Of a stretch of 64,000 bases of DNA, positions 33,773 to 53,518 are shown one piece after another. Made by a program: the position numbers and the translations under genes. Numbering within the stretch: position 1 is the first letter of the stretch; the number at the start of each line of letters is the position of its first letter. Location of the stretch: NCBI GenBank assembly GCA_017515325.1, contig JAFWGA010000057.1:95491-159490 (forward strand). The letters are read 5' to 3'. Source of the DNA: Blautia sp. (GTDB lineage: Bacteria; Bacillota; Clostridia; Lachnospirales; Lachnospiraceae). The notes under the pieces are model-generated. The model was given only the letters and a program-made list of their open reading frames with translations. It was not told the origin of the DNA and did not search any database.

Positions 33773-33824
33773 ATGCTTATGTTCCTCCTGTATCCTATAC
33801 TTGCTTTTCTGCAATCGATTCAAT

Positions 33825-33833: not shown

Positions 33834-33879
33834 TAGAGGAAAGAAAAAAGAAACCGTTTTTTTGTATACTTTTGTTTAC

Positions 33880-33908
33880 TTGACGAATCTCCATCAAATG
33901 TGTAAAAT
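33880..33908 (+). promoter_or_regulatory. Predicted promoter of the DJ-1 gene and downstream cluster
   Basis: TTGACG (33880-33885) and TAAAAT (33903-33908) are separated by 17 bases. It points toward the DJ-1/PfpI gene at 33966 and faces away from the divergent tig promoter. It could drive the SGNH-MBOAT genes that follow closely. Confidence 0.65.
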
Positions 33909-33965
33909 ACCTTCAAATATTTAGTATGATATGAGTATAAAAATGATAAATGAAGGAGGAAAATA

Positions 33966-34523
33966 ATGAAAAAAAAGGGTTATATTTTTCTCGCCGACGG
34001 TTTTGAGGATATCGAAGGACTGACTGTCGTGGATCTGATGCGCAGAGCCGGAATCGATATCGTGACGGTTTCCATAAAAGAAGAAACCTCCGTTATCACC
34101 AGCCACGGGATCAAAATGCAAACGGACACGGTTTTTTCCTCTGTTGATTTTGACGATGCAGACCTTTTGGTGCTCCCGGGAGGGAAAGCAGGGACCCAGA
34201 ACCTAAAGGCTTTTCCCCCTCTTGCCGATCTTTTGAAATCCTTCGACGCACAAGGCCGCAGGATCGCTGCGATCTGTGCCGCTCCCACCATCCTCTCCGA
34301 TCTTGGCTTGCTGAGGGGAAAACAGGCGACCTCTTATCCTTCCTGTCAGCCTCAGATCAACTGTGCCTCCTATTCGGAAAATAAAGTCGTCACAGACGGA
34401 CATATCACTACCAGCCGGGGAATGGGAACCTCCATCGATTTTGGACTGGCCCTGATATCCTTGCTCCTTGGTGAAGAAAAGGCCACCGAGATAGCTGACT
34501 CTATTGTTTACCGGCCTGAATAA
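33966..34523 (+). CDS. DJ-1/PfpI family protein
   Basis: A 185-residue DJ-1/PfpI-fold protein. The start GYIFLADGFEDIEGLTVVDLMRRAGI and the nucleophile-elbow cysteine in AAICAAPTILSDLGLL match YajL/DJ-1 type members. LVLPGGKAGTQNL is also typical. Members act as glyoxalases, deglycases or stress chaperones; the exact reaction here is unknown. GAAGGAGG precedes the start. The SGNH-type gene begins three bases after its stop codon, so the two are probably cotranscribed. Confidence 0.93.
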   Translation: MKKKGYIFLADGFEDIEGLTVVDLMRRAGIDIVTVSIKEETSVITSHGIKMQTDTVFSSVDFDDADLLVLPGGKAGTQNLKAFPPLADLLKSFDAQGRRIAAICAAPTILSDLGLLRGKQATSYPSCQPQINCASYSENKVVTDGHITTSRGMGTSIDFGLALISLLLGEEKATEIADSIVYRPE

Positions 34524-34526
34524 AAT

Positions 34527-35999
34527 ATGAAAAAGCAGGTTTTTCGCGCAACAGTTTTTCTCCTGTTGCTGTGTTTTCTTGTCAGATACCTCAGCCAGGT
34601 GACTGTCCGTAAAGATTCCTATTATAAGTTACATTCTTTTTTTGAAAGAAAGGATGATTTCGACGTACTGTTTTTCGGGATCAGCCATACTCAGGCAGGG
34701 ATCTCCCCCATGGTTCTATGGCAGCAATATGGAATCACTTCCTTCAATTTCGCTGAATCAAGGTGTGAAATTCCCTTCAGCTATTGGCTGCTGAAAAATG
34801 CCCTGGAGTATTCTTCTCCGTCCTTGGTGGTGATGGATATCAGAAGGGCCGACCGACAGGAAATCATAGCCTTGGATGGCTATTCCACCGTTTTTGACGA
34901 ATTTCCTCTTTCCCTTGTCAAAATAGAAGCTGCCCTGGATCTGTTGCCCACCTGGGATCAGCGTCTGGAGCTTATCCTCCCTCTTTTCAGATTCCATGGT
35001 CGATGGAAAGAATTAAATCGGTTTGATTTTTATCATGAACCATCCCGGGAAAGAATCGATATGGGAGGATCAGCCTACAATAACGCGCATCTTTCTGTGG
35101 CTGTTCCTGCTGATTTCGAGCTTCTTCCGGTTTCTGAAAAGCATTCTCCCGAAAAGGCTTCAGAAGAATACCTGCGCAGAATTATCGAACTGTGTCAGGA
35201 AAAAAACATAGATGTCCTCCTGGTCGAATTGCCCTACCCGGCCGATGCCGAAAGCCAAAAATACGCCAACGGTATCACGGACCTGGCGGCTGAATATGGC
35301 ATTGATTACCTGAATATGCACCAGATACCAGGGATCGTTGACTTTACCGTAGATATGAATGATGCCGACTCTCACCTGAACGATTCGGGTGCCTACAAAT
35401 TGACCTGCTTTATCGGGCAATATCTCAGAAACAGGTACCAAATCCCCAGTCATCGCTACGACAACCAGTATAAATGGTGGCATCAAAGATACACCTGGTA
35501 TTTGTCTCATCGCAACCGCAGAATCAGTCAGCAAAATTCCCTGGAAAACTTCCTGATGTTATCCTCTCATGGCAGTATCGGCAGTCTGATCTATATTCCT
35601 GCCCAGGCTGCAGAAAAAATGGATGAGAGAATGCGAAGAATCCTGATGAATCTGTCTGAAGATACGACTGCCATTGATCTTTCCGGGATAAAGGGAGAAG
35701 ACCTTCTTCTCATCACAGGCTGGCAAAAACAGGTGCTCTATTGCGGGAAGCCGGATCATGTCCCATCCGATCTGTCCGATGAAATATGGGAAAGCCTAAA
35801 GCTTTTTCCCGGACAGGGCTCAATCCGTATCCGTATTTCTTCAGAACAAAGCAAACAAACCCAGACCTTCGAGCTGACACCTAAGCAGGAAGATGAAATC
35901 TGTTGTCTGACAAAGATTTGGCATTACGGCCAGGTTTACCCTTCTGTTTTTTGTTTCTCGCATGGTGCCTTTTCTCGGTTTAGCGGTCATGACTTATAA
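34527..35999 (+). CDS. SGNH-type membrane-anchored protein (DltD/AlgX-like), copy 1
   Basis: A 490-residue protein with one N-terminal membrane anchor (residues 5-24) and the rest probably outside. It has an SGNH-like active site: the serine in FFGISHTQAG (S53) and an Asp-His pair in DADSHLNDSGAY (about 279-283). It precedes an MBOAT O-acyltransferase with overlap, as DltD follows DltB and AlgX follows AlgI in alanylation or acetylation systems. It likely moves an acyl group onto a surface polymer. No ribosome binding site is seen; translation is probably coupled to DJ-1. A paralogue lies at 46107. Confidence 0.8.
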   Translation: MKKQVFRATVFLLLLCFLVRYLSQVTVRKDSYYKLHSFFERKDDFDVLFFGISHTQAGISPMVLWQQYGITSFNFAESRCEIPFSYWLLKNALEYSSPSLVVMDIRRADRQEIIALDGYSTVFDEFPLSLVKIEAALDLLPTWDQRLELILPLFRFHGRWKELNRFDFYHEPSRERIDMGGSAYNNAHLSVAVPADFELLPVSEKHSPEKASEEYLRRIIELCQEKNIDVLLVELPYPADAESQKYANGITDLAAEYGIDYLNMHQIPGIVDFTVDMNDADSHLNDSGAYKLTCFIGQYLRNRYQIPSHRYDNQYKWWHQRYTWYLSHRNRRISQQNSLENFLMLSSHGSIGSLIYIPAQAAEKMDERMRRILMNLSEDTTAIDLSGIKGEDLLLITGWQKQVLYCGKPDHVPSDLSDEIWESLKLFPGQGSIRIRISSEQSKQTQTFELTPKQEDEICCLTKIWHYGQVYPSVFCFSHGAFSRFSGHDL

Positions 36000-37539
36000 T
36001 TCTGTTTATTTTCTTTTTTTCTTTTTCACATTTGCCCTGTTCTATTTTGTCCTGCCGGGTTCTCTCATAAAAAGAATCGTGATTCTGACGGGAAACCTTT
36101 CTTTTTATTTACTGGCTGCAGGATTCAGACCATTGGTGTTCATCACCGGCAGCTATTTTCTTACCTGCTTTGTCGCCCATCGGATCCGATCCGTCTACAG
36201 GCTCTGGGAACAGGAAAGCCAAAGCCTTTCATCCAAGGAAAAACGTCTGGGTTTTTCCCAGTGCAAAAAAAAGGTTTTTCCCCTCCTCCTTGTCGGCATT
36301 ATTCTGATCCTGGGCTCACTTATTTTGACCAAGGCCGTAAGACTGGCAGGAGGCAGTGCAGTAAAGCTGATTGTTCCCCTCGGTCTTTCCTACTATACCC
36401 TGTCCTGTACCGGATATTTGCTGGATATATACTGGGGAAAAATAAAGACTGATCCGGATCCCTTTGGCCTGCTGATCTGTATCACCTACTTCCCCATCAT
36501 CGTTCAGGGACCGATCAGCCGATACGAAAAGCTTCTGAAGCAATTCGAAAACCCACCTGGTTTTGACTATAGCCGTGTCTGCTTTGGCCTACAGCGTATG
36601 CTCTGGGGACTCATTAAAAAGAGCGTGATCTCAGACAGAATAAGCCTGTATACCACATCCGTCTTTTCCCATCTCAGTGAGAACGCAGGCCTGGAAATAC
36701 TCCTCGCTGTGCTGGGAAATGTTGCCCAGCTCTACACGGATTTTTCAGGTTGCATGGATATTGTCATCGGGGCATCCCAAGTGATCGGCATCTCGCTTGA
36801 TGAAAATTTCAGGGAACCTTTTTTGGCTCTGAGTTCCCAGGAATTCTGGAGACGCTGGCATATTACACTGGGACAATGGTTCCGCGATTATGTCTATATG
36901 CCCATTGCCATGCACCCTGGTCATATGAAGAGAGTGGCTGCTGTCAGGAAAAAGTTTGGCAGCAGAGCCGGGCAGGCTGCCGCAAGCGCTGTTCCCATTC
37001 TTACCGTATGGATCCTGACGGGTTTATGGCACGGAACGGGTTGGGGATATCTGGCCTGGGGAATCTATTGGGGTCTTTTGATCCTCCTGGAAACGGTTTT
37101 TCCGGAAAGCTTTCTCCGTTTTTTTAAAAGAATCGGGTTCGATACTGATTCCAAAGGCTTTCACTGGCTTCTCAGACTCAGGACTCTGATCTGTTTTTCT
37201 ATCGGCAGAATGCTTACCGCACTGGGTTCTCCCTGGGGGCTTTTCCGCATTCTTGGCAGACTCTTTCATCAGGCCAGACTGAATGTTCTTTTTAACGGCA
37301 GCCTTTTTTCCCATGGTCTTGACGGCAAGGATTTCCTTCTTGTTTTGGCAGGACTTTTTCTGGTTTTTTTTACCGATCTCTTTCATGACATAAAGCATAC
37401 CGATCTCAGAACTGCCCTGGCCCGGAAGCCTCTTCCGATTCGATGGGTCATTTACTTTGGAGGGATTATCTTACTGATTCTGACCGGGATTTACGGATCC
37501 AACTATGATCCAGGCAGTTTTATTTACGGTGGTTTCTAA
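35989..37539 (+). CDS. MBOAT family membrane O-acyltransferase (DltB/AlgI-like)
   Basis: A 516-residue polytopic membrane protein. MBOAT landmarks are clear: YFPIIVQGPISRYEKL, LYTDFSGCMDI, FWRRWHITLGQWFRDYVYMPI and the conserved histidine in LTGLWHGTGWGYLAWG. Such proteins carry activated acyl groups across the membrane for O-acylation of alginate, peptidoglycan or teichoic acids. The start is uncertain: ATG at 35989 (used) overlaps the SGNH gene by 11 bases, and ATG at 35962 overlaps by 38; neither has a strong ribosome binding site. Confidence 0.93.
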   Translation: MTYNSVYFLFFFFTFALFYFVLPGSLIKRIVILTGNLSFYLLAAGFRPLVFITGSYFLTCFVAHRIRSVYRLWEQESQSLSSKEKRLGFSQCKKKVFPLLLVGIILILGSLILTKAVRLAGGSAVKLIVPLGLSYYTLSCTGYLLDIYWGKIKTDPDPFGLLICITYFPIIVQGPISRYEKLLKQFENPPGFDYSRVCFGLQRMLWGLIKKSVISDRISLYTTSVFSHLSENAGLEILLAVLGNVAQLYTDFSGCMDIVIGASQVIGISLDENFREPFLALSSQEFWRRWHITLGQWFRDYVYMPIAMHPGHMKRVAAVRKKFGSRAGQAAASAVPILTVWILTGLWHGTGWGYLAWGIYWGLLILLETVFPESFLRFFKRIGFDTDSKGFHWLLRLRTLICFSIGRMLTALGSPWGLFRILGRLFHQARLNVLFNGSLFSHGLDGKDFLLVLAGLFLVFFTDLFHDIKHTDLRTALARKPLPIRWVIYFGGIILLILTGIYGSNYDPGSFIYGGF

Positions 37540-37671
37540 GAACCGGAATTGCCGTCCCCTATGGTTCCCCCCATATACGCCGACCCGCCATACCCGACAG
37601 GGTTTTCCGCAGTGCCAGCCGGTAACACACGAAGGCGCCTGGATTATCAATGATAAAAGGATCTTACCCAT

Positions 37672-40350
37672 ATGAAACACATTAACCCCTTCAAAAGCCG
37701 TGATCTCTCCCGGAGGTTTTCTCCTGTCCTTTGGTCTTTTGCCGCAGCAGTGATAACAGCATTTCTCTTTGCCCTTGTCATGTATCGGCTCGGTCTGTCT
37801 CCTTTTGGGGACAGGAGCCTTGCCACTGCCGATGCCGACATCCAGTACCTGGATCTGTTTTCTTATCTTAAGGATGTCCTGGAGGGAAAAAACAAGATAA
37901 CCTATACCATGGGAAAATCCCTCGGTGGATCAGCCATAGCTGTCTTTTCCTACTATCTTTCCTCTCCCGTTTCCCTGCTGGTCTTCTTTTTTGATAAGTC
38001 GGATTTTGCCGCCCTGTTCAATATCATGGTAATGGTTAAGCTTTCGCTTTCTGCCCTTACCTTCGGACTGTTTATCTTTCACCGCTTGGGAAGAGCTGTC
38101 AGGGAAAATCCGGCCGGCAGATATCTGCTTCTCCTTCTGTGTATCAGCTATGGCTTCTCCTATTATCATCTGATGCAGTCCAGCAATATCATGTGGCTAG
38201 ATGGGGCTGTTTTTCTTCCCCTGATCCTGCTCTGCATAAATCGGCTCTGCCAGGGGAAAGGCTCCCTTGGCTTATCCCTTGTCATCGGAGCCGGTATCCT
38301 TAGTAATTGGTACAGTGCCGGTATGAACTGCCTGTTCAGCTTTTTCTGGCTGCTTTTCGAAATACTGCTGCGTTTTTCCGGTAAGCTTTTCCGCAAAAAG
38401 CATGAATTATGCCGGATCTTATGCCAGTATTTCCTGCATATGCTGCTTGGGGTGGGACTGAGTGCCGTTCTCTTTCTGCCCACCATAGCTGCCTTCCAGG
38501 GCAATGAAGAGGGTTCCCTGCAGTGGAACCTCTTTTCGGATCCCGGTTTTTGCGGCAACCCACTTACCGCAGCAGCCAATTACTGTTACGGCCTTGTCAG
38601 CAGCTATGGAAGCCCTGTCCTCTATGCCGGTATGCTTCCTCTCATCGCCTGCATCTGTTTTTTCCTTTCACGGCACCAGAGCAGAAGAAAAAAAGGAATC
38701 TATGGCGGCTTACTGGCCTTTTCGGTGATTCTGATGCTGTACTGGAAGCCTTTATGCCTCGCGTTCTCTCTTTTTAAGCCGGTCTATAGCTATTGGTACC
38801 GTTATTCCTACATGAGCATCCTGGTCATCCTTGTCATCGGGGCGGATTTCCTGGTACATTCCAGGCAGGAGCCTGCATGGCTTCCCATTCTCGCAAGCCT
38901 GCTTTTCGGACTTGCCCTTCTTTCCCTGCATCATCTGCTGAAACCGGCGACAAGAAGAGTTCCCGGCAGCAGCCTTGGCCTGTCTTTGACGGTTCTTTTG
39001 GGTATGGGGCTACTGCTTTGTTTTTTCCTGCTTTCTTCCCGGACTCCCCACGCCCCAAAGACAAAAATCATCCTTTTGTTTGCTCTGTGTATCGCTTCCT
39101 GTGGGGATCTTAACCACCAATGTTTTCTCATGCTGAACGTACTGAATCATGAGAACGCACAGTCCCTTAAAGCTTATACGACGGATACCAATGCTTTGCT
39201 GACTGCCCTGAAGGAATATCGTGCCGCCGACACAACCATGAGAATTTCCCAGACCTCCACCCGCATCATGAAAAAAAACCGTCTGACGGCAAATTATAAT
39301 GAGGCACTTGCCTATGGATACTGGTCTCTCAGTGGATATACCTCTTGTCCTGATGATGCCCAACGCCTCTTCCTTGACAAAATCGGTTACAGAAGCAACG
39401 GCACAACCTTTAATATCGTTAACACCTCACTTGCTGCCTGCGATTCTCTGATGGGAGTAAAGTATGTTCTGTCTGATTATCCACTGGAAGGCTATATCAG
39501 GATGGATAAGCTTTCTACCGGTGGCAGCAGATCAATCTATCAGAACCCTTATGCTCTGCCCATGGCCTTTGTCGTCCCGGCTTCCCACCAGACAGCCGTC
39601 AGGGAATCAGATTTTAATACGGCTTCCCCCTTTGGCTATGTCAACTATCTCTACAGCTGTCTTCTTGGAAAAAAAACGCTGCTTTATCAGCCATTGTCCG
39701 GAAAAATCGTGCAGAAAGGGAGCATTGTCCAGGAAGAAAATCATCCGATGGCCTTGAAAGTAAAGCTGCCGGAGGGAAATTTCATCAGCTATGGTCTTTT
39801 GCCCTGGTCCAGTCAGATGAACGCCATCCTCGAGGTGGATCATCTGTATCGGATCGGTTACGGCGGATGGCTCTCCTCCTCGGTTTTTCCTATCCCTGCC
39901 AGCAAAGTCCCCGGTCATGAAGCTCTGCTTACGGTAAATTCCACCACTCCCTATTCCTTTGAATATGACAACTTTGAGTTTAGTGCTCTTGACCTGAATC
40001 AACTGAAAGAGATCAGCTCCTTTTTCACCCGCAGGCAGCCGGATCTGCTTGACTGGAAAAACGGAGAGGTTTTTGTGGAGGTATCCGATGCCAGGGAAGG
40101 AGACTCCCTCTTTGTCTCCCTTCCCTACGACAAAGGTTGGACGATCAGCTGCAATGGAGAGACTATCGAAGCCAAACAGCTGGGTATCTTTTATCTTCTT
40201 CCCCTACAGAAAGGGGAAAACCGCGTACAGTTGGTATATCACCTTCCCTGGCTGAAGCAGGGGGCTCTTGTTTCTTTTCTTTCTCTTACCATTTTGCTGA
40301 TCCTTCTATGGAACAAACACAGCCAGTCTCATTCAGACTTTGGGTCCTGA
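37672..40350 (+). CDS. YfhO family polytopic membrane protein
   Basis: An 892-residue protein with a dozen or more transmembrane helices in the first 520 residues and a large C-terminal outer domain, closed by a last helix. The YfhO region is recognisable by DADIQYLDLFSYLKDVLEGK and SLGGSAIAVFSYYLSSPVSLL, followed by the QSSNIMWLDGAVFLPLILL segment. YfhO is a GT-C-like fold; the Bacillus homologue is needed for glycosylation of lipoteichoic acid. A similar role on the local polymer is inferred. AAAGGA precedes the ATG. Confidence 0.88.
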   Translation: MKHINPFKSRDLSRRFSPVLWSFAAAVITAFLFALVMYRLGLSPFGDRSLATADADIQYLDLFSYLKDVLEGKNKITYTMGKSLGGSAIAVFSYYLSSPVSLLVFFFDKSDFAALFNIMVMVKLSLSALTFGLFIFHRLGRAVRENPAGRYLLLLLCISYGFSYYHLMQSSNIMWLDGAVFLPLILLCINRLCQGKGSLGLSLVIGAGILSNWYSAGMNCLFSFFWLLFEILLRFSGKLFRKKHELCRILCQYFLHMLLGVGLSAVLFLPTIAAFQGNEEGSLQWNLFSDPGFCGNPLTAAANYCYGLVSSYGSPVLYAGMLPLIACICFFLSRHQSRRKKGIYGGLLAFSVILMLYWKPLCLAFSLFKPVYSYWYRYSYMSILVILVIGADFLVHSRQEPAWLPILASLLFGLALLSLHHLLKPATRRVPGSSLGLSLTVLLGMGLLLCFFLLSSRTPHAPKTKIILLFALCIASCGDLNHQCFLMLNVLNHENAQSLKAYTTDTNALLTALKEYRAADTTMRISQTSTRIMKKNRLTANYNEALAYGYWSLSGYTSCPDDAQRLFLDKIGYRSNGTTFNIVNTSLAACDSLMGVKYVLSDYPLEGYIRMDKLSTGGSRSIYQNPYALPMAFVVPASHQTAVRESDFNTASPFGYVNYLYSCLLGKKTLLYQPLSGKIVQKGSIVQEENHPMALKVKLPEGNFISYGLLPWSSQMNAILEVDHLYRIGYGGWLSSSVFPIPASKVPGHEALLTVNSTTPYSFEYDNFEFSALDLNQLKEISSFFTRRQPDLLDWKNGEVFVEVSDAREGDSLFVSLPYDKGWTISCNGETIEAKQLGIFYLLPLQKGENRVQLVYHLPWLKQGALVSFLSLTILLILLWNKHSQSHSDFGS

Positions 40351-40365
40351 TCAAAGGAGATATTT

Positions 40366-40827
40366 ATGGAAATAGAACGCAAATTTCTCATCTCAAAAGA
40401 TTGTCTGCCCGCAGATTACACCTCCTATCCCTGCCATCGGATCGAACAGGGGTATCTATGCACCAACCCTGTTGTGAGGGTCCGCCGTTCAGACGACGAC
40501 TATTATCTTACCTACAAAGCCTCCGGCCTGTTAGCCAGAGAAGAGTATAACCTTCCCCTGACAGCAGAGGCCTATGCCCACCTCAGCCAAAAGACAGACG
40601 GAATCCTGATCATCAAGGACCGTTATGTCATTCCCTATGAGAATGGTCTTTTTATCGAGCTGGACGTTTTTCACGATACCTATGAAGGACTTTTTCTGGC
40701 AGAGGTTGAGTTTCGCACGGAAGAGGAGGCACTTGCCTTCACCCCACCCTCCTGGTTCGGCGAGGACGTTACTTACTCCAGCCTTTACCAGAACAGCCGC
40801 TTAAGCAATGGTAAAGTCTCCATTTGA
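40366..40827 (+). CDS. CYTH-domain protein (triphosphate tunnel metalloenzyme)
   Basis: A 153-residue protein with the CYTH signature EIERKFLI at the N-terminus, the RVRRSDDDYYLTYKA strand pair and FIELDVFHDTYEGLFLAEVEF, all lining the triphosphate tunnel. Bacterial relatives hydrolyse inorganic tripolyphosphate or similar substrates; real substrate unknown. AAAGGAG precedes the ATG. It follows the YfhO gene by 15 bases and ends just before a strong terminator, so it closes the first transcription unit of this block. Confidence 0.92.
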   Translation: MEIERKFLISKDCLPADYTSYPCHRIEQGYLCTNPVVRVRRSDDDYYLTYKASGLLAREEYNLPLTAEAYAHLSQKTDGILIIKDRYVIPYENGLFIELDVFHDTYEGLFLAEVEFRTEEEALAFTPPSWFGEDVTYSSLYQNSRLSNGKVSI

Positions 40828-40834
40828 CAACCCT

Positions 40835-40870
40835 GACAAAAAAGAAGTCCTTAGGGACTTCTTTTTTGTC
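40835..40870. terminator. Strong bidirectional-type terminator
   Basis: A 16-bp perfect stem (40835-40850 with 40855-40870) closes on a TTAG loop. The right arm carries six T residues, and the left arm six A residues. It ends the DJ-1 to CYTH unit. Confidence 0.88.
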
Positions 40871-40898
40871 GTTTCTCCCTTGCTTTGCCGAATCCTGG

Positions 40899-40927
40899 TT
40901 GAATCAAAGAAAGCCTTCTGTTATAAT
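40899..40927 (+). promoter_or_regulatory. Predicted promoter of malQ
   Basis: TTGAAT (40899-40904) and a consensus TATAAT (40922-40927) are 17 bases apart. Transcription would start near 40934, inside the tandem repeat that follows. Confidence 0.75.
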
Positions 40928-40931
40928 AACG

Positions 40932-40971
40932 GACATGATTTTATAGTAAACGACATGGTTTTGCCGTAAAT
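40932..40971 (+). repeat. Tandem 20-bp direct repeat in the malQ leader
   Basis: GACATGATTTTATAGTAAAC and GACATGGTTTTGCCGTAAAT follow head to tail, matching at 15 of 20 positions. They cover the predicted start of transcription, a likely place for a regulator site. The 37 bases left to the malQ start carry GGAGG. Confidence 0.6.
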
Positions 40972-41008
40972 TCGTGCGCATTCGATAATATAACGATGGA
41001 GGTCCGCT

Positions 41009-42514
41009 ATGGATAAAAAAAGACAGAGTGGTATCCTGCTGCCCATCAGCAGTCTGCCCTCCAAATACGGAATCGGCTGCTTCTCCAAAGAAGCCTACGC
41101 TTTCGTCGACGCCCTGAAAGAAGCCGGTCAGGCCTTCTGGCAGATTCTTCCCCTCGGTCCCACAAGCTATGGAGATTCCCCTTATCAGTCCTTCTCCACC
41201 TTTGCCGGTAATCCATACTTCATCAGCCTGGAGGATCTGATCGAAGAGGGAGTTCTTACCAAAGAGGATTGCAGCAGGGTCAATCTTGGAACAAATCCTG
41301 CCTATGTAGACTATGGAAAATTATTTGAAGGCCGCTATGAGCTTCTAAAGAAGGCTTTCGCCAATACGGATCTGTCCGAAGATGAAGAGTATACGCGTTT
41401 TGTGGAGGAGGAAGCCTTTTGGCTGGACGATTACGCCCTGTATATGGCCATCAAAACAGAACGCTTTGACAACAAATCCTGGATCGAATGGGCAGAAGAT
41501 ATCCGCCGTCGCTGGGATTACTCCCTGGATTACTACAAGGGAGAGCTGAAGGAGGAGATCGGGTTCTGGAAATACCTCCAATACAAATTCCTCCAGCAAT
41601 GGAAAAAACTCAAGGCTTATGCCAATGAAAAAGGCATCCACATCATCGGCGATATCCCCATCTATGTCGCTATGGACAGTGCCGACACCTGGGCCAGCCC
41701 CTGGCTGTTCAAGCTTCAGGATTCCGGCGAGCCTACCCTGGTGGCCGGATGCCCGCCGGATGGTTTTTCCGCTACCGGTCAGCTCTGGGGCAATCCCATC
41801 TACAACTGGGAGGTTCACAAAAAGAGCGGCTATGACTGGTGGGTCAAACGGGTAGAACATTGCTTTACCCTCTACGATGTCCTGAGAATCGACCACTTCC
41901 GCGGCTTTGACGAATTCTATGAAATTCCCTATGGGGATGAAAGCGCGGTAAACGGCTGGTGGACAAAGGGACCCGGCATTGACCTTTTCCGCGTACTGAA
42001 GGAAAGGCTGGGAGAGAAAGCCATTATCGCTGAGGATCTTGGCTACATGACGGACTCCGTCAAAGAACTGGTAAAGGAGAGTGGCTATCCCAACATGAAG
42101 GTTCTCGAATTCGCCTTCGATGAGAGGGATACCGGAAACGCCAACGATTATCTCCCCCATAACTATGACCGTAACTGTGTCGTCTATACCGGTACGCATG
42201 ATAACGAAACCCTGGCAGGCTGGCTCAAGAGTATCACCCCCGCGGAGAAAAGAAAGCTTTTGGCCTATTTCCAGCTTCCTTCCTATGCCACCGACGAACG
42301 GATCTGTAAGGAGCTGATCCGTGCGGCAGTCAGCTCCGTTGCCTGGCTTGCCATAATCCCGATACAGGATTACCTCGGCCTGGACAATAAAGCCCGTATG
42401 AATCATCCCTCCACCCTCGGCGGAAACTGGGAATGGCGTCTGTTGCCAGGGCAGTTCTCCAAAAAAGTGCGCACAGAGATAAAAAATCTGTCCCAACTCT
42501 ATGGCAGGCTGTAA
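41009..42514 (+). CDS. malQ: 4-alpha-glucanotransferase
   Basis: A 501-residue GH77 enzyme that transfers alpha-1,4-glucan segments. Motifs include GILLPISSLPSKYGIGCFS, GDIPIYVAMDSADTWA, LRIDHFRGFDEFYEIP (nucleophile Asp) and IIAEDLGYMTD (acid-base Glu). Length is normal. GGAGG precedes the ATG. It has its own promoter and lies inside a surface-polymer block, to which it may be unrelated or supply glucan. The next gene begins 49 bases later. Confidence 0.96.
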   Translation: MDKKRQSGILLPISSLPSKYGIGCFSKEAYAFVDALKEAGQAFWQILPLGPTSYGDSPYQSFSTFAGNPYFISLEDLIEEGVLTKEDCSRVNLGTNPAYVDYGKLFEGRYELLKKAFANTDLSEDEEYTRFVEEEAFWLDDYALYMAIKTERFDNKSWIEWAEDIRRRWDYSLDYYKGELKEEIGFWKYLQYKFLQQWKKLKAYANEKGIHIIGDIPIYVAMDSADTWASPWLFKLQDSGEPTLVAGCPPDGFSATGQLWGNPIYNWEVHKKSGYDWWVKRVEHCFTLYDVLRIDHFRGFDEFYEIPYGDESAVNGWWTKGPGIDLFRVLKERLGEKAIIAEDLGYMTDSVKELVKESGYPNMKVLEFAFDERDTGNANDYLPHNYDRNCVVYTGTHDNETLAGWLKSITPAEKRKLLAYFQLPSYATDERICKELIRAAVSSVAWLAIIPIQDYLGLDNKARMNHPSTLGGNWEWRLLPGQFSKKVRTEIKNLSQLYGRL

Positions 42515-42563
42515 CATCCGATTTCCCTCCCCTTTTCAGACGATAGAAAGGAGGCCATCGACT

Positions 42564-45500
42564 TTGAAAAAGACCGCAGACCAGGATTCGGCTCCTCAGA
42601 TCAGTGTGATCATGCCGGTTTACAATACAGAAGAATTCATGGAGGAAAGCCTCGCTTCCCTGCTTGCCCAGACCTTCCAGGACTATGAGCTGATCATGGT
42701 GGACGATGAATCCACCGATGCCAGCGGTAAGATAGCCGATCTGTATGCCGGACGATATGAGAATTTTTCCGCTTATCACGTCCCCAACGGAGGACCGGGC
42801 CGGGCCCGTAATTTCGGCATATCCAAAGCCAGGGGGAAATATCTGGCTTTCATGGATTCTGACGATCTCCTCTTGCCCGGCACCTACGAGACCATGTACC
42901 GGTTGGCTGAGCATGACGGCAGTGATCTGACCATTTGTAATGCCAGAAGATGCAATTCCACCAAAAGATGGAATGCCTCTTTGTATGTAACGGTTTTTCA
43001 GGATGCAGCTTCCATTTCCCACATCAGGAAGAATTACCACTTCCTCTACGATACGACCTCCTGGAACAAGCTGATCCGCAGAGACTACTGGGAACGTCAC
43101 GGCTTTCTCTATCCGGAAAAAATATATTATCAGGATATTCCCGTCATGGTTCCCGTCCATTATCACGCCAATCAGGTTAGCGTAGTGCGAAGCTATGGCT
43201 ATCTCTGGCGGGAAAGAGATTTCACTTCCCGTTCGATTACCCAGCATAAGCGCACCCTGCGCAACCTGCAGGACCGCTTTACCAGCATGGGTTTACTGGA
43301 TCGTTTTTTCGAAGAGGAGGTAACCGAACCGGAGCTGTTCTTCGAAAAAAACCGAAAGTACCTCACGGTCGATCTGATGATCTTCGTGGACAGCCTGACG
43401 ACACTTCCGGAGGAGGAAGCCTACCAGATGCTCGACCTCATCCGCGGGCATCTTGAGGAGGCAGGCTACGGTGAGGATCTGTATGCTTCCATCCCCGTTA
43501 TAGACCAGGTCAAATACCAGTGTGTGAGCAGAAGAGACCTTGCCGGCCTGAAAAACGCGGTGAAACTGCAGCAGGAATCCTACTCCCGGCTTCCTGTCAC
43601 AGAAGAGGACGGCCGCTTTTATATCGATATCGTCAGTGGGGAAACCCGGCTTCCCCATCAGGATATCACCAGGGAGTTAACCTCCCTTCTTCCCCAGACG
43701 GGAATAAAGGAAATCCTATGTACAGAAGAGAAAATTGAAATCCATGGCTTCTGCCTGATCCCCAGAGTGAATATATCGTCCCCGGAAGAACAAGAGGTGA
43801 ATGCCTGTCTTTGCAATGAGTTCACCGGAAACCGTCTCGGCCTGGTGGTGAAAGCCATTCAAGATCCTGAGCTTACCAAAGAAAAGGGAACTGTCATCGA
43901 TCCTGTTTCCGGGAAATCCTGCAGCTATTGCTATGACGGCTGCTCCTTCTGCATCCTGATCCATCCTGGCGAACTGGCCGCGGAAAGCCTGAAGGGCTCC
44001 AATCTGATCGAGCTGGAAGTCACCAACCGCACTGCCAGGAAAAGAGTCATCCTACGCGGGATCCCGGATGCTCTGAAAAATCAGAAAAAGGGATTCGCTC
44101 TGCTGACGCAAAATCTTCAGGCAAGGCTCGATTTCCTGGAGGGAGACCTCTTTTCCCTTCACATCGAAGAGGTCAGGAATACCTTGAAGGATTGTCAGCA
44201 AAGAACCTCCCCCTTTGAAGCTCTTTGTCTGAGTCTTGACGCTCCCGCCCAGAAAATGACAGCCCGCCCTGAGCAGAGGGGGCTCACGGACATTACCCTT
44301 GACAGGGTCAATGATACTTCTTTCAGCCTCCCCTTACAGGAAATCTCTCCAGGGACAGAATACCTGCTCTATGTCTGTGACGGGGAAAATGAATCCCCTC
44401 TGTTTGGCCGAAGGAAAGAGCTTCTTTTTTTCTCCGGCTCAGGCAAAACCTGGATCGTCCGTTCCAATGCGGACCAAATGGTAAGAATCGCCCTGCAAGA
44501 CCAAATCACCCTTGTTTCCGACAGGATTCAAAGCTTCGGCACTTTGAAGGCTCAGTTCAAAATCCATACCCTTACTCCAGGCCTTCCCACCGCCCCTGTT
44601 TCCTGCCAGCTTTGCGTCTTTGACCCCCGGACATGGAAGGATCTTGTTCTGGCCAGGTGTGCACCGGATCCTGAGGGGGGGAATGAATGCATCCGGTCTG
44701 CCTTCCAGCTTGATTTTGAGGACAAGGATATCCTCTCCAATCTGTATGAAAGCTATCGGGAGCTTTATGTCCGATATCTGGGACCGGATGGGGAACTGAT
44801 TTCCCGCCAGCCTCTTTACAGTAAAGATTATTTTTCCTCTCTTGTCGAATTTCCGACCCTGCAGCTGCGCCTCTATCGTCATGGGGCAGGCTTTATGCGG
44901 CTTTATATCAGAAAGCTTTGGGCAAGCGCGGAAAATACCAGGGAAAAAAGAGAATTCCTGTATCGTCAGAATTACCCCAAATACCAGGAACTGCCTCTGG
45001 ATGAAAGGCTGATCCTTTTCGAGTCCTCAAAGGGCAGCTCCTGCAGCGGAAATCCCCTTGCTCTATATCAGTACATTGACAGCCATCTTCCCGATTTTCA
45101 GTGTGTCTGGTCTCTGACAGATCCCAGAAGTCCCATTCCGGGAAAGGGAAGGCGGATCCGCAGAGCTTCCCAAGGCTATTATAAAATACTTGCCACTGCA
45201 AAGTACATTTTTACGGACTCTGAAGTCCTTGAAGGATTCAGCAAAAGAACCGGTCAGATTCTGGTACAGACCTTACATGGCATGCCCGTGAGAAAGCTGG
45301 GTCTGGATCTCTTGCGCTACAACCCGGATGCCAGCGGGGACGACTTTCTTTCCCTGCAGAAGCAGTATCGGGACTGGGATTATCTGATCGTTCAAAGCCG
45401 ATTTATGGCTCATCAGGCTTCCTCCTGCTTCGGAAGGGATATCCCCATGCTTAAGTGGGGAGAACCCCGGACAGATTTCTATTTTGGAGACAAGGTCGGC

Positions 45501-46094
45501 CAAAAGGAGGCTCTGCGGCAGAAATTTGGCTTTCCAAATGGAAAAAAGATTCTGATTTATGTTCCTGCTACCCGGATCAAAGGAAAATGGAATTCCGATC
45601 TGGATCTTTGTCTTTTGAAACAGATGCTGGGAAAGGAATACATAATTCTCTTATGCCCTGAAGACGGTGGCGGCAGACCTTCCCTTGAGCCTTATCTGGA
45701 GGGCTTTGCCTATGATTTCTCCCAGTACCAATGCCGGGAGGAGCTCTTCCTTCTATCCGACATCCTGATCACGGACTATTCCGCCTCTGTTTTTGACTTC
45801 TGCCTCATGAATAAGCCTGTCATCTTTTACGGTTTTGATGCCGCTTTCTTCGTTGAGCGTTACGGAGGATTGTATTTTGACCCGGAGAAGCAGCTTCCCG
45901 GCCCCCATACCTACTCGACAAGGGAATTAGCCGAAACCATTTCTTCACTTCCGGCATTCTCCAGGCGGCAGTTTGCTTCCCTGATCAAAGAATTTGCATC
46001 CTACGAAATTTCCGCTTCAAGTGATAAGATAATAAAGAGGATCATAAAAAAAAGAAAAGGTCTTTTCCATAAAGACTTTTTCAAACGGAAATAG
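42564..46094 (+). CDS. Fusion of GT2 glycosyltransferase and CDP-glycerol:poly(glycerophosphate) transferase-like domain
   Basis: A 1176-residue cytoplasmic polymerase-like protein. Residues 12-240 are a GT2 domain (ISVIMPVYNTEEFMEESL, DDESTDASG, MDSDDLLLPGTYE). Residues about 350-780 are unassigned and look beta-rich. Residues about 830-1160 are a TagB/TagF-type glycerophosphotransferase domain (LVQTLHGMPVRKLG, ILITDYSASVFDF, KPVIFYGFD). It may extend a teichoic-acid-like polymer by adding both a sugar and a glycerol or ribitol phosphate. The start is a TTG at 42564, nine bases after AAAGGAGG; an earlier in-frame ATG overlaps malQ. Confidence 0.88.
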   Translation: MKKTADQDSAPQISVIMPVYNTEEFMEESLASLLAQTFQDYELIMVDDESTDASGKIADLYAGRYENFSAYHVPNGGPGRARNFGISKARGKYLAFMDSDDLLLPGTYETMYRLAEHDGSDLTICNARRCNSTKRWNASLYVTVFQDAASISHIRKNYHFLYDTTSWNKLIRRDYWERHGFLYPEKIYYQDIPVMVPVHYHANQVSVVRSYGYLWRERDFTSRSITQHKRTLRNLQDRFTSMGLLDRFFEEEVTEPELFFEKNRKYLTVDLMIFVDSLTTLPEEEAYQMLDLIRGHLEEAGYGEDLYASIPVIDQVKYQCVSRRDLAGLKNAVKLQQESYSRLPVTEEDGRFYIDIVSGETRLPHQDITRELTSLLPQTGIKEILCTEEKIEIHGFCLIPRVNISSPEEQEVNACLCNEFTGNRLGLVVKAIQDPELTKEKGTVIDPVSGKSCSYCYDGCSFCILIHPGELAAESLKGSNLIELEVTNRTARKRVILRGIPDALKNQKKGFALLTQNLQARLDFLEGDLFSLHIEEVRNTLKDCQQRTSPFEALCLSLDAPAQKMTARPEQRGLTDITLDRVNDTSFSLPLQEISPGTEYLLYVCDGENESPLFGRRKELLFFSGSGKTWIVRSNADQMVRIALQDQITLVSDRIQSFGTLKAQFKIHTLTPGLPTAPVSCQLCVFDPRTWKDLVLARCAPDPEGGNECIRSAFQLDFEDKDILSNLYESYRELYVRYLGPDGELISRQPLYSKDYFSSLVEFPTLQLRLYRHGAGFMRLYIRKLWASAENTREKREFLYRQNYPKYQELPLDERLILFESSKGSSCSGNPLALYQYIDSHLPDFQCVWSLTDPRSPIPGKGRRIRRASQGYYKILATAKYIFTDSEVLEGFSKRTGQILVQTLHGMPVRKLGLDLLRYNPDASGDDFLSLQKQYRDWDYLIVQSRFMAHQASSCFGRDIPMLKWGEPRTDFYFGDKVGQKEALRQKFGFPNGKKILIYVPATRIKGKWNSDLDLCLLKQMLGKEYIILLCPEDGGGRPSLEPYLEGFAYDFSQYQCREELFLLSDILITDYSASVFDFCLMNKPVIFYGFDAAFFVERYGGLYFDPEKQLPGPHTYSTRELAETISSLPAFSRRQFASLIKEFASYEISASSDKIIKRIIKKRKGLFHKDFFKRK

Positions 46095-46106
46095 AAAAGG
46101 ATTATC

Positions 46107-47654
46107 ATGAAAAAAAGGACAAAACAGATCATCGGCACTTTCATGACTCTTCTGCTTACTGTTCTTCTTCTCAGTGTTCTTACTTCTGTCACTGAAAGGA
46201 AAGCAAGCCGGGAAAAATATCGGGATTTTTTTACTCAGAAAGAAGATTTTGACGTCCTGTTTCTGGGAACCAGTCACGTTATCAATGCCATATATCCCAT
46301 GGAGCTGTGGAAGGACTATGGCATCGTTTCCTATAATTTCGGGGGACACGGCAGTCAGATTGCCACCACCTACTGGACCCTGAAGAATGCCCTCGATTAT
46401 ACCAAACCTAAGCTGGTTGTGATGGATTGTCTCAGCCTGTCCTCAGCCAAAAAGGGAAATGATGTTTTTTCCTTTTTCCATCAGGCCTTTGACAGTTTTC
46501 CTCTGACCTACAATAAACTCTCAGCCATCTGGGACCTGCTCGATGACCCCGGCCTTGACGAAACCATTGCCAACGGAACTGCCCGGGAGTCAGATGAACC
46601 CCGGACAAAAATAGGTCTTTTATGGAATTTTACGGTCTTCCATTCCCGTTGGAACGAACTGACAGAAGAGGACTTTCATGTCCCCAGGGAAAAGGAAAAG
46701 GGAGCGGAATCCCGAATCCATGTCTATTCTACCTCCCTCCGAAAGATTCCCTCGGACCAGAAATCTGAGGGAGACAGTGTCGGTTACCGGTATCTGCTCA
46801 AGATTATCAAGCTGTGCAAGGAAAAAGGGATAGATCTGCTGCTGACCTTCTATCCCTTCCCCGCCAGCATGGGACAGCAGATGGATGCCAACAGAACCTA
46901 TGATATAGCCGCCGAGTATGGCCTGAACTACATCAATTTCCTGGATCTGGATATCGTGGATTACAAAACGGACTGTTTTGATGAGAGCTCCCACCTGAAT
47001 CCTTCCGGGGCGAGAAAGGTCACGGACTATATCGGAAGCTACATTATGTCCCATTATCCTGCTGTTGCGGATCAGCGGAATAATCCTGACTATGCCGGTT
47101 GGTTTGATGATTACAAAGAATATGAAGCTCTGAAAAAAGAAAACCTCCAGTCACAGACAAAGCTGGATAATTACCTGATGCTGCTTCGTGACAAAAATAT
47201 CGATATCATCATGGAGGTCAACACACCGGAGCTCTGGAAAACCAACCTTTACGGGGCTCTTCTTGAGAATCTGGGTGTCGATCTGAATACACTTCCCCAA
47301 GACCAGGATATCTATGTTCTGACAAAGGGCGGAGCCGGCGCAGAGTTTTACGGGAGGAAGGCGCTTTTTGACAGCACAGTGAATGTCCCCGGTCTCGGCT
47401 CCCTCAGTGTCAGATCGCCTGAGGCGAAGGACAATGATTCTGCCGACGAAAATAAAACGGAAGATACCTACGGCTTTTGGCTCGATGACAAGCTTTTATA
47501 TGAAGCCCAGAAGAGCCATAACGATGTAGAGGATCTCCGCGTTACCGTGCTGGACTCTAAAACCCATGAGATTCTTGACCATGTCACCTTTATTCTTGCC
47601 CTGCATGAGACCAATGGCAGCTACAATGTCAGAGTCGCCCAGACCAATCGGTAA
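46107..47654 (+). CDS. SGNH-type membrane-anchored protein (DltD/AlgX-like), copy 2
   Basis: A 515-residue paralogue of the protein at 34527. Both share the N-terminal anchor, the serine motif (FLGTSHVINA, S56), the stretch ending YWTLKNALDYTKPKLVVMD, and a late Asp-His motif (DESSHLNPSGA). No MBOAT gene lies beside this copy, so it may share the one at 35989 or act alone. It starts 12 bases after the GT2-phosphotransferase gene, suggesting one transcript and action on the same polymer. The C-terminal 130 residues are charged and unassigned. Confidence 0.78.
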   Translation: MKKRTKQIIGTFMTLLLTVLLLSVLTSVTERKASREKYRDFFTQKEDFDVLFLGTSHVINAIYPMELWKDYGIVSYNFGGHGSQIATTYWTLKNALDYTKPKLVVMDCLSLSSAKKGNDVFSFFHQAFDSFPLTYNKLSAIWDLLDDPGLDETIANGTARESDEPRTKIGLLWNFTVFHSRWNELTEEDFHVPREKEKGAESRIHVYSTSLRKIPSDQKSEGDSVGYRYLLKIIKLCKEKGIDLLLTFYPFPASMGQQMDANRTYDIAAEYGLNYINFLDLDIVDYKTDCFDESSHLNPSGARKVTDYIGSYIMSHYPAVADQRNNPDYAGWFDDYKEYEALKKENLQSQTKLDNYLMLLRDKNIDIIMEVNTPELWKTNLYGALLENLGVDLNTLPQDQDIYVLTKGGAGAEFYGRKALFDSTVNVPGLGSLSVRSPEAKDNDSADENKTEDTYGFWLDDKLLYEAQKSHNDVEDLRVTVLDSKTHEILDHVTFILALHETNGSYNVRVAQTNR

Positions 47655-47686
47655 TGAATTCGAAGCCGAACAGAGGATAAACGATT

Positions 47687-49993
47687 ATGTCCGAACAATT
47701 ACCTCCAGCTGTAAATATCGACAGTATATTTCACTCACATGTGCAGAATGGTTTTTTTTTCCTGGATTCTGACCATTTGGAGTCGGTTACTTCCCACCTT
47801 TATGGTTTTTCCATTCTGGATGACAGAATCGTGACTGAGGATACCTACCCTGAAGGCGGTTCCCCTTCTTTTTCCGGTGGTTTGGGAACCTATGTACTGG
47901 TCGAAAGAAGCGGAAGAAAGATTAGCATAACCCAGGATTACAACGGCTCTTTCGGCCTCTACCTTTTCCAGGAAGGAGATTACTTTGCCCTTAGCAATTC
48001 TTTTCTTCTTCTGGTAGATAAACTGAAAAGGTCCCATTTCCTGTCCTTGAATCAGGAATATGCCTATCTGCTCCTCGCGGAGGGCTTCTGTTCTCTTTCC
48101 GTGACGGAAACCCTGGTATCCCAGATCCGGCTTCTCAGGCGAAACGCTGCTGTACATATTGACCTGGATCAGAGCAGCCTGACTCTCACCTATACGGATC
48201 ACGGGGAAAACACGGTTGACGTCACCTCCCATGAAGGGATCGCTTTGCTGGACCGTTGGTTCGAGCGCTGGCAGAGAATCCTGAAATCCCTGGAGAATAC
48301 TGATTCCCCTATCCACATTGCCCTGTCCGGAGGCTTTGACAGCCGGCTTACCTTTATGCTGGCTCTTAAATCCGGGATAGACCTTAGCCGGGTCAAGGTA
48401 AGTTCTTTCCACGACGAGCATCATACCCATAAGGAAGATTACGAAATTGCCTCGCAGATTGCCGACTATTATCATTTTCAGCTTAACAAGGGCAAAAAGA
48501 ATGCCAGATGCTCTCCCATCTCTGCAGAGGAAACGCTTTTCATCAATCTGTACATCAAACTGGCCTTTCACAGCCAGATGTACTACCACTCCAGTTATCA
48601 GGATGACCGTCTGTTCATCATTTCCGGATCAGGAGGAGAATGTCTGAGGGATTACTGGCATGATACAAAGGAAGATTTCATCACCCGAATCCTGAACCGG
48701 GCAGCTAAAAATTTCCCGGAAACTGCCCCTCTGTTCCAGGGGCATATCCGGAATGCGCTGGAGCGATCCTTCCGGGAGATTGACAAAACACACCATTTTG
48801 ATGATCCCAATTCAAAGGATTATTCCCTCTTTCTGTACAGGGAAACCCGTTGCCGCAATCACTTCGGCAAGACAGCCGCCTGCGATTACCTCTTGAACCG
48901 CTTTACCCTTTCTCCGCTGCTGGATCCGGATCTGCATCGCCTTAAGCTGACGACAGCAGGCTGTGAAGACAGGAATCTTCTGCTTGCGGTTATTTACAGC
49001 CGCTTTTGTCCTGATCTGCTTTCTTTCCGCTTTGACAGCGGGAAAAAAATAAAGGAAGAAACCATTGCCTTTGCCAGGCGGATGCTTTCCGATTTTCCTT
49101 ATCACGAAAAGAAGGTTGTTCCTTTCACGCTACCGGCTCCCCGGCAGAAGGATGATTCAGCTTTGTCCGTTGACACAAGGTCTTCGGAAAAGGCTTTTGC
49201 CGCTTCGGACGTGAAGCTGCCAGAGGCTGATTCTCTCTCCCTTCTCCGAAATCTGGAGCAGGAAACGGGCAGTGCGGAGACAGCCGCGGAGCAATATATG
49301 TTCCATATTTTCTCCGGTGGCGGTGTCAGGAATCTGTTTACTCTTCTTTTCCCCGATGAGATTTATTCCTATGCAGCCTGCTATCCCAGCATACAGAATC
49401 ACTATCCCTACCGTTATGGCTACCTTGTTCTTGGCATTACCAAGTTCCTGGAGGATACCATTGCCAGCCGGAATATGACCGCCGCTTCCCTTACGGATGC
49501 TTTTTTCAAACTGGCAGCTTCTCCTGAGGCTGTCAGAGATGAGGATCCTTCGGAGATCCTGAAAAAAATAAAGAATCATATCACAGCCAGGATTGATGTC
49601 AATATTCAAGGGTCATCCTATACCCAGCTGGAGCTTCTGCATTGCTCTGACGCCAAGGCCAGAATCACCAATCCTGACTGGTTTCAGAAAAACGGCATCG
49701 GCTATCAGATTGAATCCTTTGCCCTGCAGCTTCGCCTCAGGTTTCACTGTCAAAGCGACGGTTCCCTAAGAGTAAAGCTGAGAGGAAAAAGCGTCTTTGA
49801 CAAGAATAACAAGCGGATTCCCTACTGGATCGACTATACCTCTCTGACCGTGAACGAAAAAACTCAGTTTAAGGGCAGGCGATCTGCCTGCCACGATGCC
49901 TCCCTGACTTTCACTTTTCCTGTGAAGGAGGGTGACAACATAGAGCTTAACATGGAATGGGACGCTCATCTGGGGCAATCTCCCACAGAGTAG
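47687..49993 (+). CDS. Asparagine-synthetase-like protein with degenerate glutaminase domain
   Basis: A 768-residue protein. Residues about 60-110 resemble the end of an Ntn glutaminase domain (ITQDYNGSFGLYLF, YFALSNSFLLLV), but there is no cysteine at position 2, so glutamine hydrolysis is unlikely. Residues 210-480 are a PP-loop ATP-pyrophosphatase domain with SGGFDSR (214-220) and GSGGECLRDYW. Residues 650-768 form an unassigned beta-strand-rich end. AsnB-like proteins occur in polysaccharide loci, where some amidate uronic acids; this role is inferred. GAGGA precedes the ATG at 9 bases. Confidence 0.78.
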   Translation: MSEQLPPAVNIDSIFHSHVQNGFFFLDSDHLESVTSHLYGFSILDDRIVTEDTYPEGGSPSFSGGLGTYVLVERSGRKISITQDYNGSFGLYLFQEGDYFALSNSFLLLVDKLKRSHFLSLNQEYAYLLLAEGFCSLSVTETLVSQIRLLRRNAAVHIDLDQSSLTLTYTDHGENTVDVTSHEGIALLDRWFERWQRILKSLENTDSPIHIALSGGFDSRLTFMLALKSGIDLSRVKVSSFHDEHHTHKEDYEIASQIADYYHFQLNKGKKNARCSPISAEETLFINLYIKLAFHSQMYYHSSYQDDRLFIISGSGGECLRDYWHDTKEDFITRILNRAAKNFPETAPLFQGHIRNALERSFREIDKTHHFDDPNSKDYSLFLYRETRCRNHFGKTAACDYLLNRFTLSPLLDPDLHRLKLTTAGCEDRNLLLAVIYSRFCPDLLSFRFDSGKKIKEETIAFARRMLSDFPYHEKKVVPFTLPAPRQKDDSALSVDTRSSEKAFAASDVKLPEADSLSLLRNLEQETGSAETAAEQYMFHIFSGGGVRNLFTLLFPDEIYSYAACYPSIQNHYPYRYGYLVLGITKFLEDTIASRNMTAASLTDAFFKLAASPEAVRDEDPSEILKKIKNHITARIDVNIQGSSYTQLELLHCSDAKARITNPDWFQKNGIGYQIESFALQLRLRFHCQSDGSLRVKLRGKSVFDKNNKRIPYWIDYTSLTVNEKTQFKGRRSACHDASLTFTFPVKEGDNIELNMEWDAHLGQSPTE

Positions 49994-50040
49994 AGGGCGA
50001 GGCGCCGGTAACCGTCAGTTGCCTTCTTCCTTTCGGCGCG

Positions 50041-50191
50041 CCCCTCCCCGCGCTGCATTCCAACGTCAGTCGAAAAAACTCATAACGCGGCTCTGAGATA
50101 GGGTAGAGGAAGACGCAGCCGCACCTCTACCCCCTCCCCGAGCCGCGTTCCGACGTTAGTCGGAATAATTTCATTACGCGGCTCTGGGATA
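50041..50191. repeat. Tandem 60-bp imperfect repeat with nested palindromes
   Basis: Copy A (50041-50100) and copy B (50131-50191) start with CCCCTCCCCG and end with ACGCGGCTCTG(A/G)GATA. In copy B the outer arms GAGCCGCGT and ACGCGGCTC (50140-50148, 50176-50184) enclose TCCGAC-gtta-GTCGGA. The spacer holds GGGTAGAGG / CCTCTACCC. It lies between convergent genes, and no coding potential is evident. Confidence 0.75.
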
Positions 50192-50194
50192 ATA

Positions 50195-53495: not shown

Positions 53496-53518
53496 AATTC
53501 CCTGCCTCCTTTCCAAAA

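Follow-up and report, generated by a model that had tools for sequence, protein, structure and literature searches.

Two accessory cassettes of probable surface-glycan genes in a core gene block of a Blautia genome, and the AsnB-like family that one of them carries

Nine forward genes lie between positions 33966 and 49993 of a 64,000-nucleotide stretch of Blautia sp. DNA (the window, which covers positions 95491-159490 of contig C3, up to its right-hand end, in a genome of 3.3 Mb and 68 contigs), and six of them have their closest described relatives in systems for O-acylation, sugar transfer, polymerisation and amide formation. We count the alginate AlgI/J/X system among the acyl-CoA-type systems that pair an MBOAT with an SGNH protein. 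In the available excerpt of PMC12148441, such pairs, PatA/PatB included, have an MBOAT with a conserved His and a C-terminal FXYXXF motif, the acyl-shuttle motif, together with an SGNH protein carrying a Ser and an Asp...His pair. DltB/DltD follow the common principle of MBOAT plus SGNH. YfhO takes part in multi-component glycosylation with GtcA and CsbB (PMC8035078, in excerpt), and TagF and TagF-like polymerases (PDB 3l7i, 8qoy) carry the PF04464 domain. The AsnB superfamily includes AsnB, WbpS and the lasso and macrolactam cyclases, and precedents for an amide on a uronic acid are given, in the excerpts available, by WbpS/PGN_1234 of Porphyromonas gingivalis (PMC7468200) and by the C-terminal amidoligase of Cj1438 in the capsule of Campylobacter jejuni (PMC11800397). 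No literature on the present locus or on its AsnB-like family was found in open-licence PMC papers; one of them, on a Rubrivivax exopolysaccharide (PMC3684757), contains the terms 'asparagine synthase' and 'MBOAT' together.

The nine genes encode, in this order, a DJ-1/PfpI protein (dj1), an SGNH-like protein (sgnhA), an MBOAT, a YfhO-type protein, a CYTH-domain protein (cyth), MalQ, a fusion of GT2 and TagF-like domains, a second SGNH-like protein (sgnhB) and an AsnB-like protein (Table 1), with tig-clpP-clpX-lon on the opposite strand at the left. The interval is a core block (tig, dj1, cyth, malQ) with two accessory insertions and not a single-purpose locus, because synteny in the genus shows the core genes without glycan genes, dj1 is inverted, and the cassettes are placed around cyth and malQ: sgnhA-MBOAT-yfhO separates dj1 from cyth, and malQ is followed by the fusion, sgnhB and the AsnB-like gene. 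In our judgement it is somewhat more probable than improbable that these are two surface-glycan cassettes which tailor, and perhaps extend, a glycopolymer primed and ABC-exported from elsewhere in the genome. Their insertion would have rearranged the tig/dj1/cyth/malQ block.

The core genes were observed throughout the genus. malQ had a match at E 1e-150 in 41/41 genus genomes and dj1 in 56/60. Thirteen of the 41 malQ regions were fetched (5-20 kb, picked mainly among the best matches); cyth stood close to malQ in seven, and SGNH, MBOAT, YfhO, GT2, TagF-like or AsnB-like genes had a match in none (0/13), generic ABC ATPases being all that was found. Of the 56 matching genomes, the 30 best supplied the dj1 loci, each with about 1.5 kb on either side. 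Among the 29 loci from other genomes, 23 had cyth no more than about 1.5 kb from dj1, glycan genes were absent, and tig and dj1 shared a strand in all 26 loci having both called, whereas they stand on opposite strands in the window. MalQ, CYTH and DJ-1 are thus disfavoured as members of a glycan system, since they occur across the genus without glycan genes. An earlier sequence-only reading had presented the interval as a surface-polymer assembly and decoration locus and left these three of the nine ORFs, which do not belong to glycan assembly, unmentioned; decoration, O-acylation included, is supported, but a single assembly locus is weakened by the two insertions among core genes. No repeats of at least 25 bp that might be traces of insertion were present within 33500-50600.

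Table 1. Genes of the interval and the convergent gene beside it, in window coordinates.
Feature	Position	Strand	Evidence and remarks
DJ-1/PfpI gene (dj1)	33966..34523	+	PF01965 E 5.5e-43; TIGR01383 177 bits (above its cut-off); belongs to the core block, not to the glycan genes
sgnhA, SGNH-like, hydrophobic N-terminus	34527..35999	+	FFGISH, NDADSHLN; GDSL E 0.011; 39% to sgnhB
MBOAT O-acyltransferase	35989..37539	+	PF03062 E 2.2e-12, over cut-off; FIYGGF C-terminus
YfhO-type GT-C glycosyltransferase	37672..40350	+	PF09586 E 5.3e-112, 376 bits (cut-off 28.5)
CYTH-domain protein (cyth)	40366..40827	+	PF01928 29.5 bits (cut-off 23.2); core block
MalQ 4-alpha-glucanotransferase	41009..42514	+	PF02446 616 bits; core gene
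GT2 + TagF-like (PF04464) fusion	42501..46094	+	GT2 118.7 bits; PF04464 227.6 bits (cut-off 22.1)
sgnhB, second SGNH-like protein	46107..47654	+	conserved Ser, Asp...His columns
AsnB-like protein	47687..49993	+	Ntn-type second half without Cys; PP-loop SGGFDSR; C-terminal domain common to glycan enzymes
Triple-GT2 glycosyltransferase	50265..53522	-	three GT2 stretches; convergent with the AsnB-like gene, just outside the interval

The acylation genes are ordinary in kind, and what is new here is the AsnB-like family. A match was found in 2/31 genus genomes and in at least 6 of 397 family genomes (E 0.001), both counts including the window's own genome and the latter two partial matches; in the GTDB collection an alignment query gave 30 loci, while a single-protein query found no relative. 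The hosts are Bacillota of several families, Spirochaetales, Kiritimatiellae, Ruminobacter, four Methanobacteriaceae and a very distant Salinicola, a patchy spread made up mostly of gut and rumen Bacillota, by record titles, plus methanogenic archaea. The archaeal members (L074 and L077 from Methanobrevibacter, L078 and L081 from Methanosphaera) form one group with 93/92 support; a transfer between bacteria and archaea is not demonstrable, the archaeal rows grouping together and 9/31 inner branches being open.

The neighbourhoods of the 30 loci, several of which are cut by contig ends and two of which (L073/L075) are near duplicates, were compared by BLAST at 1e-10 with a small reference set, so that other kinds of glycan genes would be missed. 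GT2 was the commonest neighbour (16 loci), followed by UDP-sugar dehydrogenase (8; six were checked by Pfam and 6/6 confirmed), triple-GT2-like (7), LicD-like (4), exporter membrane subunit (3) and TagF-like genes (2), with MBOAT, YfhO and TagD-like genes in one locus each. GT2 or UDP-sugar dehydrogenase occurred in 0/13 genus malQ control loci, which are not genome-matched controls. By this count 16 to 19 of the 30 loci link the family to surface glycans, and there is no fixed operon. Homologues of the window's triple GT2 (at least 500 aa aligned) occur in 7/30 loci, L073/L075 among them, and the convergent arrangement recurs in L072; the triple GT2 is a recurrent partner of the family, to be considered with the AsnB-like gene. 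In the window a methyltransferase gene and then one for a clostripain-type protein follow it. Two UDP-sugar dehydrogenases exceed their cut-off in the window's genome.

Three side observations concern the surroundings of the family. Three tandem AsnB-like genes, forming one clade (100/100), stand near a GT2 gene and an ABC exporter pair in Butyrivibrio sp. WCD3002 (L084, 8124-13584). In two Selenomonadaceae loci (L076, 10085-18130; L090, 9935-18209) the AsnB-like gene is a few genes from lon-clpX-clpP, core genes that also lie left of the window's cassettes, which is perhaps a shared insertion area or chance. In Pseudoflavonifractor (L068, 8002-12130) it adjoins a MalQ gene (50% identity), and malQ is also near the AsnB-like gene in the window.

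Two other explanations of the arrangement have to be weighed. The nine genes may include tailoring genes acquired independently, acting on different polymers and brought together by a common insertion hot spot, which we hold to be a considerable possibility although short of probable. It accounts for the pieces being found apart elsewhere, some of them single among core-type genes as judged by eye (the fusion in genome G254, locus L101; AsnB-like genes in L070, L076, L088 and L090), and for the relationships of the MBOATs: one encoded on contig C23 is 59% identical to the MBOATs of three genus genomes (G003, G027, G049) that adjoin SGNHs near sgnhB, and the window MBOAT shows no more than 33% identity to these. 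Against it stand the co-occurrence of AsnB-like and triple-GT2 genes in those seven loci and in the window, and one other genome (L067) in which an MBOAT-like ORF, the AsnB-like gene and a GT2-TagF-like fusion lie side by side. The L067 trio also speaks for one dedicated operon that builds and decorates a single new polymer, dj1, cyth and malQ either taking part or being carried along. Such an operon would fit nine ORFs on the same strand with mostly short gaps (3 bp between dj1 and sgnhA, 15 bp between yfhO and cyth, 12 and 32 bp inside the last cassette, and malQ overlapping the fusion) and the inversion of dj1 into the shared direction. It is nevertheless on the unlikely side, as dj1, cyth and malQ are found in the genus without glycan genes, the run is interrupted by 132 bp between the MBOAT gene and yfhO and by 181 bp between cyth and malQ, and the whole set occurs in no fetched stretch besides the window. 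Promoter and terminator scans came close to the shuffled background (22 promoter-like hits against a mean of 16.3, 24 terminator-like against 19.4) and were not used. The linkage across genomes that the sequence-only reading had expected thus holds for the L067 trio and for MBOAT-SGNH adjacency (see below), but the AsnB-like homologues otherwise stand in many different neighbourhoods.

The window's AsnB-like protein gave no Pfam match at E 0.01 and no match in PDB sequences; its NCBIfam matches are weak (E 0.0012-0.0013), and the AsnB model TIGR01536 was not matched at E 0.01. The alignment of the family holds 34 members, namely the window protein and 33 from 29 loci, with gene starts called by script and with short or partial matches and the Salinicola sequence left out. 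The PP-loop [ST]GGxD[ST]R is kept in 34/34, and the motifs of the family are SGG[FM]D[ST]R (most members), HTHxEDYEIA and HFGK. Of the Ntn-type domain only the second half is recognisable, and none of the 31 (out of 34) members with an aligned N-terminus has the Met-Cys start that would supply the glutaminase Cys. At E 0.01 or better, NCBIfam models matched were macrolactam cyclase in 15/34, AsnB in 10/34 (best E 1.1e-8), amidotransferase in 7/34 and MnmA in 4/34. The protein called AsnB-like at first reading keeps the PP-loop and lacks firm model matches, and ordinary glutamine-dependent amidation is made less likely by the missing N-terminal Cys. The family shares the PP-loop and weak model matches with the AsnB superfamily and differs from it in lacking that Cys and in an extra C-terminal domain common to glycan enzymes: the same domain is found on GT2 proteins (L074, 16946-18502; L080, 1185-3707), on a DUF6270 protein (L083, 9008-15761) and on a protein weakly like a capsule enzyme (L064, 9242-11059), and the Pfam matches seen in L083, L074 and L080 do not cover it.

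Ligases that act on other amines, such as beta-lactam synthetase and lasso cyclase, have typically lost the glutaminase. We infer that the AsnB-like protein is a glutaminase-less amide ligase. Its PP-loop, its lack of a glutaminase and the dehydrogenase genes nearby are the grounds for proposing an ATP-dependent reaction in which an amine is joined to a uronic acid. The wider proposal, that the family consists of glutaminase-less ATP-dependent ligases that attach amino acids or amino alcohols to the uronic acids in surface polymers, is tentative and seems to us possible rather than probable. Cj1438 (PMC11800397, in excerpt) resembles it in the proposed chemistry, an ATP-dependent amide on a chain uronic acid. 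The protein might instead make a plain uronic acid carboxamide as WbpS does, with ammonia that is free in solution or supplied by a separate glutaminase; the WbpS precedent (PMC7468200, in excerpt) and the UDP-sugar dehydrogenases in 8/30 loci would suit this, yet the lack of a Met-Cys start and an Ntn-type domain reduced to its second half make it unlikely.

The O-acylation part is well supported at the level of sequence, and its mechanism would be ordinary in kind. The MBOAT ORF opens at 35962, with a Met codon at 35989 as the likelier start; the conserved His of LWHG is residue 357 of the longer ORF, WHG is present in 12/12 aligned MBOATs including the window's, and the protein ends in FIYGGF, which corresponds to FXYXXF. 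Neither SGNH-like protein reached a cut-off of Pfam or curated SGNH models (sgnhA came to GDSL E 0.011, sgnhB to nothing), nor did sgnhB match PDB sequences, but the block-I Ser and the Asp...His pair are kept in 13/13 aligned SGNH sequences, sgnhA and sgnhB included, and to this extent the two SGNH-type proteins first proposed stand. Genus-wide, sgnhB had a match in 29/60 genomes, its own included; 11 of these loci, from 9 genomes and mostly stronger matches, were fetched, and an MBOAT adjoins the SGNH in 9/11, with the FXYXXF ending in 9/9 of those MBOATs. The window set is therefore like PatA/PatB and other acyl-CoA-type pairs in its MBOAT His, its FXYXXF motif and its adjoining SGNH; it differs in coming from a Gram-positive anaerobe, and no other MBOAT in the sample of 11 exceeds 39% identity to the window's (best G036).

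Two further MBOATs are encoded in the genome, one on C28 beside a DltA-like gene and without FXYXXF, which appears DltB-like by eye and by its PF03062 match, and the C23 protein mentioned above (ending FIYYQF), near which no SGNH match was found in the surrounding 20 kb. Because the C23 MBOAT resembles MBOATs adjoining sgnhB-like SGNHs, sgnhB may pair with it, and adjacency suggests that sgnhA pairs with the window MBOAT; we offer this as a lead. As a side observation, genome G025 (L043, 2535-3617 and 8739-11756) has an MBOAT-SGNH pair and, some 5 kb away, a homologue with 71% identity to the window methyltransferase (53519-54493). A duplicate Dlt-type D-alanylation of lipoteichoic acid, which a DltB-like reading of the MBOAT would imply, is highly improbable: although DltB is the nearest solved structure (E 1.8e-22) and the DltB model TIGR04091 gives 158.4 bits, the required 375 is not reached, the window MBOAT has an acyl-shuttle motif that the genome's DltB-like protein lacks, no dltA or dltC stands beside it (its neighbours are dj1, sgnhA and yfhO; the check did not extend to dltX-sized ORFs), and C28 carries a separate DltA-like/DltB-like pair.

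The YfhO-type protein shares with YfhO/GtcA/CsbB glycosylation the YfhO domain over its cut-off; it scores 162 bits with the PgfM2 model, below the cut-off of 1500, and no CsbB- or GtcA-type gene was seen among the scanned neighbours, no genome-wide search having been made. Pfam bore out this protein, the MBOAT and the GT2 plus glycerophosphotransferase-type fusion where the sequence-only reading had placed them. The fusion shares PF04464 with TagF (E 8.6e-51) and adds an N-terminal GT2 domain, which keeps MDSDD, and a middle region without assignment. H444 and H584 are active-site histidines of TagF. The equivalent of H444 is kept in the window fusion (QTLHG) and that of H584 is replaced (LLCPED, against RLH in the homologues of G254 and G140, which keep both), while the homologue of L067 has lost the other one, the H444 equivalent. 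A local frameshift was rejected as the cause in the window, as no other frame of the 150-base stretch restores the histidine. The TagF-like activity of the fusion is doubtful or altered, given the lost H584 equivalent, and the TagF-type function first attributed to it is weakened. Matches to the fusion at E 1e-60 occur in 4/299 family genomes, its own included, with two candidates scored per genome. The G254 homologue (L101, 2271-5939) stands alone among translation-type core genes, as judged by eye, and is another single-gene insertion.

The sequence-only reading had noted that export genes and a priming transferase are missing from the window, and a Pfam scan of 48 window ORFs (out of 110 ORFs of at least 100 aa, many being overlapping frames) showed neither; a priming enzyme was not searched for genome-wide. 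A CDP-alcohol phosphatidyltransferase at 999-1532 looks like a phospholipid enzyme. Elsewhere in the genome, however, contig C49 holds an ABC exporter pair (Pfam ABC_tran and ABC2_membrane) amid three PF04464 proteins. The two exporter subunits share 71% and 57% identity with those of a pair directly beside SGNH-MBOAT in another genome of the genus (G048, locus L041). In L041 a choline-binding-repeat cell-wall hydrolase lies on the other side of the MBOAT, and the membrane subunit itself has no Pfam match at 1e-5. A CDP-glycerol synthase model exceeds its cut-off at C43, and the fusion homologue of G140 (L102) adjoins cytidylyltransferase, ABC exporter and LicD genes. Together C49, C43 and the G140 context point to an ABC-exported, phosphate-bearing wall polymer, on which the window genes might act.

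If family knowledge, from which every reaction here is drawn, applies, the MBOAT of the first cassette would load the Tyr of its C-terminal FIYGGF with an acyl group, probably acetyl, drawn from acyl-CoA; the Ser of the SGNH protein would receive it and deliver it to the polymer outside the membrane, where YfhO would add a lipid-carried sugar. The second cassette and the convergent triple GT2 would build chains in the cytoplasm, sgnhB may work with the MBOAT on C23, and the AsnB-like enzyme would adenylate a carboxylate, most simply that of a chain uronic acid, and join an amine to it. The least certain parts are the identity of the polymer, the amide-ligase step, the TagF-like activity and the SGNH-MBOAT assignment.

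Several results weigh against this explanation. With a completeness of 87.7%, absence of a gene from the genome is not arguable. The relatives nearest sgnhA (in G032, G047, G049, G027 and G003) overlap those nearest sgnhB, and the SGNH beside the G036 MBOAT, nearest relative of the window's, is close to neither. Eleven of the 30 AsnB-like loci have no glycan reference gene (ten match nothing, and L085 matches its own split AsnB-like gene). Pfam Asn_synthase is matched by 2/34 members, and the family has no Pfam model of its own; hhalign against seven AsnB-type proteins is collinear and not significant (probability 4.7%, E 0.0086), and the family profile finds no AsnB in PDB (best E 0.35; MnmA-type PP-loop enzymes 0.51-0.55). 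The placement in the AsnB superfamily draws on motifs and weak profile scores.

Apart from the interval, the window contains a cobalamin (B12) biosynthesis cluster on the minus strand (8803-22689 and 22734-23927; ALAD, CbiC, CbiA/CobB-type, CobD/CbiB, CbiG, CbiD and others), in which a 660 aa ORF (18131-20113, minus strand) fuses a CbiJ-type reductase, a tetrapyrrole methylase and a methyltransferase-like domain. In the Rfam scan of the window no cobalamin riboswitch came up to the gathering score.

The charge and acylation of surface polymers govern host and phage recognition and resistance to cationic peptides. If the explanation favoured here, of two surface-glycan cassettes inserted into a core block, is true together with the amide-ligase proposal, gut commensals and gut archaea would have in common an unrecognised enzyme family that can alter the charge of surface polymers by amides, beside O-acylation.

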